NCBI RefSeq assembly: GCF_008329525.1
Contig: NZ_NPKQ01000003.1
Coordinates: 310,001 to 374,000 of the forward strand
DNA from: Tardiphaga sp. P9-11
Lineage (GTDB): Bacteria > Pseudomonadota > Alphaproteobacteria > Rhizobiales > Xanthobacteraceae
Direction of reading: 5' to 3'
DNA length: 64,000 nt
Shown here: one piece after another, positions 32,204 through 34,646 of the stretch
How the letters are laid out: every line of letters starts with the position of its first letter
How positions within the stretch are numbered: the stretch's first letter is position 1
The notes under the pieces: generated by a model
Seen by the model: the letters and a program-made list of their open reading frames with translations, nothing else
Database searches by the model: none
Told to the model about the DNA's origin: nothing
Position numbers and translations under genes: made by a program

Positions 32204-33058
32204 ATGACCACACTGCGTTTCGTCGAGCGCTTGCGCGACCTCACCGGCAATGTCGACGTCGTCCTCAGCGACATCTGGGGCGTCGTCCATAACGGCCTCG
32301 AATCTTTCCCCGAAGCCTGCGAGGCGCTGCATACGTTTCGCGCCCGAGGCGGCACGGTGATCATGATCACCAACGCGCCGCGGCCGGCGGATTCCGTGCA
32401 GCGGCAGCTCCGCAAACTCGGCGTTGCTGACGACGTCTATGATGCGATCGTCTCGTCGGGCGACCTCACGCGCAATTTCGTCGCCGGCCGACCGGGTCAG
32501 GCGATGTATCTGATCGGACCGGACCGCGACAGTTCGATCTATCGTGGCCTTGACGTCAAACTCACGCCGCTCGAACAGGCCGACTACATCGTCTGCAGCG
32601 GGCTGTTCGACGACGAAACCGAAAACGCAGAAAACTATCGCGACATGATGCAACAGGCCCTGTCGCACAGGCAGACACTCGTATGCGCCAATCCGGACAT
32701 CATCGTCGAGCGCGGCGACCGGTTGATCTACTGCGCCGGCGCGGTGGCCGAACTGTATCGCGAGATGGGCGGCGAGGTGATCTTCTACGGCAAGCCGCAC
32801 CGGCCAATCTACGATCAGGCCATGGCGCTCGCCAAGGTGAAGCGCGGCAAGGACACGGCGCTGGATCGCGTGCTGGCGATCGGGGATTCCGTGCGCACCG
32901 ATCTCACCGGCGCCCATGCATATGGCATCGATCTCCTGTTCGTCACCCGCGGCATCCATGCCGGCGACTTCGAAGGCATCGAGCAGATGGGCGCCGCGGA
33001 AGTGAAGGAACTGTTCGGCCATCCACCGAAAGCGCTGATGCGTGAGTTGAAGTGGTGA
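32204..33058 (+). CDS. HAD-superfamily hydrolase, TIGR01459 type
   Basis: 284 residues. HAD motif I is DVVLSDIWGVVHNG (nucleophile Asp; DIWGVVHNG is characteristic of this subfamily), motif II VIMITNAPRP, and motif III/IV GDSVRTDLTGAHAYGIDLLFVTRG. Class IIA cap in the middle, FYGKPHRPIYDQAM. Related to NagD and pyridoxal phosphate phosphatases; substrate unknown. Starts 14 nt after the TipF-like gene, so probably co-transcribed with it. Faces the unusual non-coding region. Confidence 0.85.
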   Translation: MTTLRFVERLRDLTGNVDVVLSDIWGVVHNGLESFPEACEALHTFRARGGTVIMITNAPRPADSVQRQLRKLGVADDVYDAIVSSGDLTRNFVAGRPGQAMYLIGPDRDSSIYRGLDVKLTPLEQADYIVCSGLFDDETENAENYRDMMQQALSHRQTLVCANPDIIVERGDRLIYCAGAVAELYREMGGEVIFYGKPHRPIYDQAMALAKVKRGKDTALDRVLAIGDSVRTDLTGAHAYGIDLLFVTRGIHAGDFEGIEQMGAAEVKELFGHPPKALMRELKW

Positions 33059-33109
33059 GCTGAGGCGACTTCTCCTCCTTCAAACAGCAAATCTGCGCTG
33101 GAGGGGATA

Positions 33110-33671
33110 TCGCTGACGCCTGAGCGTCTTCAGATTCAACTGTCAAACAGCAACTGCTCTTCAGACATGCCTCATCACCCCTGTTGTTTGCGGCGCGGGG
33201 GCGCCGTCGTCTGCTGCATTCCCGCCCCCTTGTGAGAGGGCGCGCGGAACGCCGGGTGCCCGTTGCACCCTTGGGCCTGATGCCATGCGGTCTTCCGCAA
33301 TAGTGAATGCATCAGGACTTTCGGAGGCGCAGGGCAAGAAAGTGCCCAGCGTTCCGCACGCGGTGTTTGACGGGGTGCCCGGCTTTCCAGATGAATCCTC
33401 AGACCCACCATTATTAGACCCCATTGCGATGAGGTCGGATTAGCGCAGCCAAGAACCGAACGCCTCGGATGAAGTCGTCCGTCACACTGTCCAGAGGGTC
33501 TTTCCATCTCAAGGCCAGCCGTCTCCTTGCCAGTGGCAGTGCTGGCGCAGATCCGTCCTGCCCGAAGACAGACGTCACCCATGAACCGCGTGACGCCGCA
33601 TCTCCAGCGCCCACCGCATCCCACCCCGCGACCGTGACGATCGCGATCGCCCCTCTCGGTGGGGCAGGACG
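33110..33671 (-). ncRNA. Candidate structured non-coding RNA, unrecognised family
   Basis: Downstream of a near-consensus minus-strand promoter (33678-33705) lies about 500 nt with a dense series of perfect stems. In transcript order: GCCCC/GGGGC near the 5' end; a C-UUCG-G tetraloop hairpin (about 33571-33553); GCCAGC/GCTGGC; GACCTCAT CGCA ATGGGGTC (33437-33418); then a multibranch domain closed by GCGGAACGC/GCGTTCCGC (33357-33349 / 33252-33244) holding hairpins GGGCA/TGCCC, CCTGATGC/GCATCAGG with inner TGCGG/CCGCA, and GGGTGC/GCACCC. GACGC/GCGTC lies at the far end. No conserved tmRNA, RNase P, SRP or 6S sequence was found. Ends are approximate. Confidence 0.5.
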
Positions 33672-33677
33672 AAGGGG

Positions 33678-33705
33678 AATATAATCAAGGACGGGATATT
33701 GTCAA
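33678..33705 (-). promoter_or_regulatory. Near-consensus sigma70-type promoter, minus strand
   Basis: TTGACA (33705-33700), a 16-bp spacer, then TATATT (33683-33678). A full-consensus -35 with a 5/6 -10 is rare in this GC-rich window and there is no protein start downstream within reach, so it points to a non-coding transcript running left from about 33671. Confidence 0.6.
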
Positions 33706-33755
33706 CGCGAGATAGGAAAAAATGTTTTACGTCTCTATGCGCCTCGCCCCACACT

Positions 33756-33908
33756 GTCATTCCGGGGCGACTGCGCGCCTTCGCGCAGGCGAACCCGGAA
33801 TCTCCACCAATTTTGCGCTGAACATTCCGGGATTCCGGGTTCGCACTGCAGCGGCTTCGCCGCCTTCGTGCGCCCTCCGGCCCACCAATTGGTGTGCGGG
33901 AGAATGAC
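33756..33908. repeat. REP-like compound palindrome
   Basis: Outer arms GTCATTC (33756-33762) and GAATGAC (33902-33908) enclose nested repeats: GCGAACCCGGAATC (33789-33802) with its perfect complement GATTCCGGGTTCGC (33831-33844), plus TGCGCG/CGCGCA and CAGCGGC TTC GCCG hairpins. The CATTCCGGGGC and GAACCCGGAATC words are typical of Bradyrhizobium-group extragenic palindromes. Lies between the cheY terminator and the ncRNA promoter. Confidence 0.8.
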
Positions 33909-33925
33909 GGCGGCGAACCACAACG

Positions 33926-33954
33926 CAAATGCCCGGCACGAGGCCGGGCATTGC
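33926..33954 (-). terminator. Hairpin downstream of the cheY-like gene
   Basis: AATGCCCGGC (33928-33937) and GCCGGGCATT (33943-33952) form a perfect 10-bp stem with a 5-nt loop, 37 nt after the cheY-like stop on the minus strand. The T content after the stem is low, so termination may be Rho-assisted. Confidence 0.6.
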
Positions 33955-33990
33955 GAAACTCGAAAGCTCTGAAGAACGAAGCTGCGCGGC

Positions 33991-34386
33991 TTACGCGGGC
34001 ACGGTGTCCGGGAACACGGCTTCGATCTTGGTCTTCAGCGTCGCCGCGTTGAACGGCTTGACGATATAGTTGTTCACGCCGGCCTTCTTGGCGGCAATCA
34101 CGTTCTCGGTCTTGGACTCCGCCGTGATCATGATGAACGGGGTCTGCGACAGGTTGGGGTCGGCGCGGACTTCCTTGAGCAGGTCGTAGCCCGTCATCGG
34201 CTCCATGTTCCAGTCGGAAATCACCAGGCCATATTTCTTGGTGCGCATCTTTTCCAGCGCCATCGAACCGTCGCTGGCATCGTCGATGTGTTCGAAACCA
34301 AGCTGCTTCAGAAGATTGCGAATGATGCGGATCATGGTGTTGTAATCATCCACCACCAGCACCGTCATCGACAAATCAACCGCCAT
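33991..34386 (-). CDS. CheY-like single-domain response regulator
   Basis: 131 residues from ATG 34386, fixed by AGGAGG 7 nt upstream; the ATG at 34392 is too close. Receiver domain only: acidic pair in VLVVDDYNTM, phosphoacceptor Asp in LVISDWNMEPMTG, Thr/Ser in PFIMITAESK and Lys in NNYIVKPFNAATL. SDWNMEPM is the CheY signature, so it probably binds the flagellar motor switch or acts as a phosphate sink. No other chemotaxis genes are adjacent; the TipF-like gene is 1.8 kb away. TTTGCC GTCA GGCAAA hairpin in the leader (34430-34445). Confidence 0.93.
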   Translation of the reverse strand: MAVDLSMTVLVVDDYNTMIRIIRNLLKQLGFEHIDDASDGSMALEKMRTKKYGLVISDWNMEPMTGYDLLKEVRADPNLSQTPFIMITAESKTENVIAAKKAGVNNYIVKPFNAATLKTKIEAVFPDTVPA

Positions 34387-34646
34387 CTTCATTCCTCCTG
34401 AGGCACGATACGCAAATGCAAAAATGATATTTGCCGTCAGGCAAACCGTTCCCGACCGGGATTGGCGAGTATAGCTGTCCGCGGCCCGGAGCAAGAATTA
34501 GCAGCCTGGGTTAAATTTCCAGTTAACCGCCCTGTGGCACCAAATTGGTCAAATTCGAGGAGAAAGCCGATTTTACCTTCGCTTGACTTCGAGGCAGCGC
34601 GCGCGCCACGCTCCCTTACCCGCCAAAACCACCAACGAATCCAATC

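Follow-up and report, generated by a model that had tools for sequence, protein, structure and literature searches.

A candidate multicopy structured RNA with a boxA-like 3' end in Tardiphaga and its relatives

Introduction

The window analyzed here, a 64,000-nucleotide stretch of the Tardiphaga sp. P9-11 genome, contains a region that a first-pass annotation, made from the sequence alone, had described as promoter-driven, packed with hairpins and free of protein genes, and had put forward as a candidate new structured RNA. Does this region encode a structured RNA, and if so, what might such an RNA do? The proposed location, between a HAD gene (TIGR01459) on one side and a palindromic repeat on the other, was confirmed. 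The proposed extent (33110-33710) held only in part: the block of homology common to 20 near-full-length genomic copies places the whole element, consisting of a promoter, a non-coding structured RNA and a 3' boxA, at positions 33130 to 33727 of the minus strand, so that it runs longer than had been thought, and it is multicopy. A single window could not have revealed that the element is multicopy and evolves in concert, that its 3' end matches a boxA or that a second RNA family exists.

Results

Promoter and Boundaries of the Element

A promoter scan of positions 32900-34600 returned a single sigma-70-like site, the minus-strand TTGACA-16-TATATT at 33705-33678 that had been claimed at the outset, with 11 of 12 consensus matches, against 0.4 ± 0.7 such sites in shuffles. 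Across 48 copies, the mean column conservation is 99.3% for the -35 box TTGACA (33700-33705, minus strand) and 95.5% for the -10 box TATATT (33678-33683, minus strand), the spacer reaching only 71.8% and the flank 47.5%. A further conserved stretch, AAACATTTTTTCCTAT, lies 5' of the -35 box (33712-33727, minus strand) in the alignments of the 20 own-genome copies and of the 48 copies; its designation as UP-like is an inference. Among named-contig members with other promoters, TTGAC occurs in the expected stretch in 33 of 106, where shuffling predicts 4.8. It is likely that the RNA is made from the element's own promoter, although this is inferred from conservation, with no expression data. Scanning revealed neither a terminator-like site nor a U-tract terminator at the 3' end of the element, and the end of the RNA is therefore undefined, with the boxA possibly internal to a longer transcript.

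Directly upstream of the element, and outside the RNA, a palindromic repeat (33757-33850, no strand assigned) fits Br-REP2 when compared by eye with the published consensus (PMC5082802); similar repeats adjoin several other copies. The Bradyrhizobium members (L056-L169) have inverted repeats upstream of the RNA and around their promoters, for example TGATTTGGG..CCCAAATCA or TTTGCCCGTCG..CGTCGGGCAAA. By eye, the arms of these repeats seem to covary, and they could possibly represent an operator.

Absence of a Protein Gene

The window copy contains open frames of 149, 87 and 71 codons, which are kept in only 2, 3 and 6 of the 20 own-genome copies, respectively, the window's included. Differences among copies are spread almost equally over the three codon positions, and no codon-level conservation of the 149-codon frame, which would have pointed to a gene, was seen. 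The three longest frames gave no NCBIfam match and no Pfam match above the cut-off (one Pfam match was sub-threshold), and a codon-usage score found no gene inside any of the 48 copies. The original claim that no protein gene is present thus holds.

Structure of the RNA

Covariation shows two folded domains in the RNA, a helix domain on the 5' side and a multibranch domain on the 3' side. The predicted RNA of the minus strand between 33680 and 33160 has a fold that beats 100 of 100 shuffles (z of -4.5), and the individual stems described in the first pass are present: the 9-bp closing stem GCGGAACGC/GCGTTCCGC at 33357-33349/33252-33244, the C-UUCG-G loop in the minus-strand RNA, and the 8-bp stem-loop GACCUCAU-CGCA-AUGGGGUC, which includes one U-G pair and whose coordinates had been given one position off (33437-33418 instead of 33436-33417).

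The 3' domain (33237-33369, minus strand) is built from a closing helix of 16 pairs (33361-33346 with 33255-33240) and two further helices. In a MAFFT alignment of 31 sequences (all 21 non-redundant sequences of one collection and 10 of the 27 of another), 98.2% of the cells in the three named helices are paired, compared with 88.0 ± 0.7% after shuffling, and two-sided changes are found at 12 of the 27 tested pairs. The covariation score is 0.342, against 0.141 ± 0.010 for shuffled alignments and no more than 0.089 for versions in which the structure was slid, and RNAalifold, given no structure, recovered all three helices, differing slightly at their ends. The closing helices swap among members, as in GCGGAACGCCGG/CCGGCGUUCCGC, AGGGAAUGCCGG/CCGGCAUUCCCU, AGGGAAAGCCGG/CCGGCUUUCCCU and GGGGAAUGCCGG/CCGGCAUUCCCC. 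Because the regular expressions used to select the set constrain parts of the closing stem (columns 21/140 excepted), the proportion of paired cells in that stem is flattered. Left out of this test were the hairpin next to the closing stem and a candidate pseudoknot (33178-33209, minus strand), a CGGCG/CGCCG hairpin with a CCCC loop able to pair with GGGG (33181-33178); the latter was read from the sequence and its conservation and has no covariation data.

The 5' domain (33612-33670, minus strand), defined by a match to the covariance model R1, contains helix P1 (33670-33661 with 33627-33618) capped by the conserved GAGAGGGGCGATCGCGATCGTCACG. In 77 distinct sequences, 96.4% of the cells of this helix are paired compared with 91.0 ± 0.4% after shuffling, with a score of 0.261 versus 0.159. 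Two-sided changes occur at 6 of 14 pairs, and this measure, one of five in the test, was reached by 22 of 500 shuffles. The alignment was fitted to the structure and partly reused the 28 sequences from which R1 was built (out of 31 non-redundant ones, with the 5' end of five lengthened manually). A simpler gapless count over P1 agrees (551 of 784 cells paired versus 499 ± 8), and since a simple rule gave some of its 112 rows a wrong start, which lowers the result, the 77-sequence test is the better of the two. Between the two domains lies a mosaic middle domain (33370-33611, minus strand) that differs among copy types in the alignment and for which no fold has been established.

The helices of the 3' domain contain 39 G-U but only 8 A-C cells, which indicates that the promoter-bearing strand is likely to be the RNA. 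A search of Rfam 15 at gathering score gave no match in the window, in loci L217, L224 and L225 or in 13 loci of relatives, and the weak matches around the element (E values up to 10) look like chance. Known Rfam families were accordingly rejected for the stretches searched, and tmRNA, which the first pass had already ruled out, was rejected because neither ARAGORN nor Rfam gave a match. Conservation in relatives, abundant compensatory changes and the lack of an Rfam family in the stretches searched, three of the outcomes that the first-pass annotation had named as bearing on its proposal, all support the candidate new structured RNA, and we regard a real structured RNA gene family as very likely.

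Copy Number and Distribution

A search of the P9-11 genome gave 24 matches, of which 20 are near full length, the others among these having 76-95% identity to the window copy. The remaining four comprise two fragments (L021 and L022) and a single diverged copy that is split into two halves (L023 and L024). Alignment of the 20 copies reveals a common block from AAACATTTTTTCCTAT 5' of the -35 box (33727 in the window) to a GCTGTTTGA motif near 33145, with flanks that are unlike one another. The fragments at G000:C12:857283 (L021) and G000:C3:113585 (L022) are decayed elements, at sites where the copy in a congener, G016, is longer.

By blastn, the element was found in 21 of 61 genomes including our own, and in 17 of the 18 genomes of the genus (16 of the 17 others), the single negative genome being 81% complete. 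Only 9 or 10 candidates were scored per genome in these many-genome searches, so the copy numbers obtained from them are lower bounds; in G016, which is represented by two contigs, there are 28 matches. A variable middle flanked by both a 5' and a 3' domain recurs in 49 of 53 fetched loci, the other four being fragments or cut by contig ends. In named contigs, the 5'-domain pattern occurs in at least 118 stretches, mainly from Bradyrhizobium, Tardiphaga and Afipia, together with metagenome bins labelled otherwise; the promoter type of the window copy is found on contigs of Tardiphaga robiniae and Bradyrhizobium sp. NFR13.

The 5'-domain covariance model matched 35 of 119 genomes (16 of 47 genera) in a draw from the bacterial family, with 21 to 31 matches in each of the five genomes of the window's genus in that draw. 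In a draw from the class, it matched one of 289 genomes, the window's own, and none of the 288 others. Both searches were strictly filtered and the class draw scored 18 candidates per genome, so weak members may have been missed. Plasmid and phage collections, each searched once in a distant mode, gave no match to the element.

A home-made gene caller, trained on five window genes, placed 27 of the 48 copies between convergent genes, 3 between divergent genes and 9 with both genes reversed, a count for which there is no genome-wide background. Because the neighbors are so mixed, the copies probably do not act as leaders of particular genes.

A boxA-like Motif at the 3' End

Most close copies end in GCTGTTTGAMA, which is the core of the boxA of 16S rRNA leaders, the NusB-S10 site. 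This end motif, GTGGCTGTTTGACA (TTGCTGTTTGACA in the window copy), matches the rRNA-leader boxA, which in the 16S leader of P9-11 itself reads GGGCTGTTTGACAAGT. In the window, a pattern search places the boxA-like 3' end GCTGTTTGACAGTTGAATC at 33133-33151 on the minus strand; the boxA there reads TGCTGTTTGACA, and its core GCTGTTTGACA is identical to that of the own rRNA-leader boxA, an identity of sequence for which there are no binding data. The motif also occurs in each of the six 16S leaders located in five further genomes. The core GGCTGTTTGACA is present in the leaders of P9-11, G016, G010 (two leaders), G065 and G145, and G105 has GTTGTTTGACA instead.

By regular expression, the boxA ends 16 of the 20 own-genome copies and 21 of the 28 G016 copies, and is missing from the other 4 and 7, respectively. 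For the named contigs, we scored the 54 of 118 pattern hits that had a recognizable 3' domain and enough sequence. At least 10 of the 11 boxA letters were found within 260 nt after the 3' domain in 18 of these and fewer than 10 in the other 36; the same score was reached in 7 of 1080 shuffles and in none of 54 reverse complements. Three scored members have the promoter type of the window copy, and all three carry the boxA. With a longer boxA pattern, the P9-11 genome contains 15 places, of which 13 are ends of the main family and 2 are ends of a second family (see below), compared with none for the reversed pattern. In G016, GGCTGTTTGAMA occurs 25 times and its reversed control 3 times; the 25 comprise 19 main-family ends, 3 second-family ends, 1 16S leader boxA and 2 unrelated strings.

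A Second Family with Similar Ends

A second multicopy RNA-like family was noticed, represented by L224 (G000:C16:1322481, minus strand) and L225 (G000:C19:296331, plus strand). Its promoter type and boxA end are those of the main family, but its body is different. Its 5' helix looks related by eye to that of the main family; R1, run on 79 loci, gave 78 matches, none of them in L224 or L225, and Rfam gave no match in these two loci. The second family is present in 24 of 61 genomes, with at least 10 matches in the P9-11 genome (10 candidates were scored), and of 22 loci examined, 15 have the boxA, two of these 15 being the same place. At one shared site, G016 holds the main family and P9-11 holds the second. 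Similar ends combined with different bodies that have been exchanged at one site would fit gene conversion through the common ends, although this is an inference.

Site Comparison and Concerted Evolution

The 20 own-genome copies were compared by synteny with the 28 matches on the two contigs of G016. For 13 of the 20, both flanks match both flanks of one and the same G016 copy. Of the other seven, three match mainly by one flank, two are split over two G016 copies, one match is weak and one copy has none. The flanks of L006 correspond to those of L203 and L206, and the flanks of L011 to those of L028 and L204, that is, to two different G016 copies each, which indicates chromosomal rearrangement through the elements.

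For both members of all 13 syntenic pairs, a paralogue from the same genome is nearer than the orthologue, with identities of 87-91% between orthologues and 91-97% to the best own paralogue. In a tree of the copies, the genome labels require 4 changes versus about 15.5 when the labels are shuffled. The signal is not absolute, as the own-genome copies L011 and L012 group with G016 copies, and the mean identities differ little (90.1% within P9-11, 92.5% within G016 and 89.1% between them). Because all 13 syntenic copies are nearer to a paralogue than to the orthologue, we infer that the copies have been homogenised largely in place, gene conversion being the simplest route. Among dispersed RNA gene families, it is chiefly the rRNA genes that are known to be homogenised in this manner.

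P9-11, G001, G004, G009 and G016 (L200) all have the element at the site where it lies in the window. It was not found there in eight other congeners, in which the neighboring genes are about 30-310 bp apart, and G002 is cut off by a contig end. Conversely, P9-11 has no copy at four inspected G016 sites; neither target-site duplications nor terminal inverted repeats were seen by eye at these four empty sites, the edges of which are blurred by Br-REP-like repeats. Since the element is missing at some congener sites, no single copy need be essential.

Discussion

A Proposed Role in Trans

The reading that we prefer is a stand-alone, multicopy non-coding RNA gene acting in trans through its boxA, although without expression or binding data we think that this reading, taken as a whole, is a little more apt to fail than to hold. 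Sigma-70 RNA polymerase would start near 33671 on the minus strand, as inferred from conservation, and make an RNA of at least about 540 nt. This folded RNA would run into an rRNA-type boxA, the presence of which is shown by sequence. The two-genome comparison shows that most copies stay at fixed sites and yet are more like their paralogues than their orthologues, most simply through gene conversion. The least secure step is the action itself: it is conceivable that the RNA works in trans, with NusB-S10 binding the 3' boxA and the folded body serving as a scaffold or stabiliser, but this is inferred and no binding data support it. The many copies would then provide a dose sufficient to draw Nus factors away from pre-rRNA by competition, or to enlist them for another task, and so tune rRNA synthesis. 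In E. coli, rRNA expression falls when Nus factors are titrated by an RNA containing lambda NutL (PMC4807359); the same study maintains, however, that the importance of Nus factors lies more in the maturation of rRNA than in antitermination. Against the trans-boxA reading stand the lack of expression data, the position of the boxA at the end of the RNA, which is not its usual placement in rRNA, and its absence by regular expression from 4/20 own-genome and 7/28 G016 copies.

A bolder version may also be entertained, in which the Nitrobacteraceae possess a genome-wide system of boxA-tailed structured RNAs that act as decoys or recruiters of the Nus complex and set rRNA output. Such a system would comprise at least two families with similar ends and different bodies. 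The main family, which numbers 20 to 31 copies in genomes close to that of the window, would be kept uniform by gene conversion and would act through its dosage.

Alternative Explanations

The main rival, which remains possible, is a selfish, non-autonomous, RNA-based mobile element, SINE-like, that uses a reverse transcriptase or recombinase encoded elsewhere and retains its promoter and folded RNA for the sake of its own propagation. This would suit the number of model matches (up to 31 per genome), the patchy presence (35/119 genomes of the family), the congener sites with and without the element, the preference for positions between convergent genes (27/48 copies, with 3 divergent), and the promoter type and boxA end common to two families that have been swapped at one site. 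However, neither terminal inverted repeats nor target duplications were seen by eye at the four empty sites, the plasmid and phage collections gave no match, no partner enzyme is known, and the 13/20 sites shared in both flanks with the congener speak against recent bursts there. Less probable is a cis element, in which promoter and boxA launch a Nus-modified, Rho-resistant polymerase into the flank, and antisense or interfering transcription is the function. The boxA does lie at the downstream end, and for 36 of the 48 copies the downstream neighbor lies antisense (the 27 convergent cases and the 9 in which both genes are reversed), but the flanks vary among copies, with divergence setting in immediately beyond the boxA, and such a role would not need a detailed RNA fold.

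We consider it very unlikely that the element is a bidirectional terminator or a DNA-level hairpin repeat of the REP/BIME type between convergent genes. The preference for convergent pairs (lacking a genome-wide background), the hairpins and the neighboring Br-REP-like palindromes could be read in this way, but the element has its own conserved promoter, an excess of G-U over A-C cells (39 to 8), a size near 600 bp and no U-tract terminator. That one of the open frames is a protein-coding gene is all but excluded: the window copy does have frames of 149, 87 and 71 codons, but these are seldom kept among copies, the codon positions differ evenly, no family matched above the cut-off and none of the 48 copies has a coding score.

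Significance and Comparison with Known Systems

An RNA supported by covariation, about 550 nt long, present 20 to 31 times per genome and without an Rfam match, has relatives in Bradyrhizobium, the genus of soybean symbionts, and we did not find a description of it in the open-access literature searched. For the preferred trans-acting reading, the boxA tail offers a direct handle on a link to ribosome synthesis, and if the bolder version were true, the RNA would be a controller of rRNA antitermination. We further infer that repeats of this sort may disrupt genome assemblies and give rise to spurious ORFs in annotation.

Several known systems resemble the element in part. Large structured RNAs represented in Rfam include tmRNA, RNase P, group II introns and HEARO; the element is similar to these in size class and folding, but no model reached the gathering score in the stretches searched. 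The repeats Br-REP1 and Br-REP2 of Bradyrhizobium are also dispersed and intergenic in the same bacterial family (PMC5082802), and one fits beside the window copy; these are short palindromes, whereas the element is a unit of roughly 600 bp with its own promoter. As a candidate identity, REP/Br-REP was rejected for the element itself, the consensus not being matched by eye. The RNAs BjsR1-BjsR10 of B. japonicum are mostly intergenic, with mapped starts, several predicted RpoD promoters and some imperfect copies (PMC5082802). They have 2 to 4 copies (PMC5082802), compared with 20 near-full-length copies here, and the likeness is not based on sequence. Eukaryotic SINEs are short, promoter-bearing RNA units with many copies and shared ends; unlike these, the element has no visible target duplication and no known partner enzyme, and it appears to be homogenised in place. 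With the NusB-S10 antitermination site, the boxA of rRNA leaders, the element shares the core itself, which is located here not upstream of a 16S gene but at the 3' end of a free-standing RNA.
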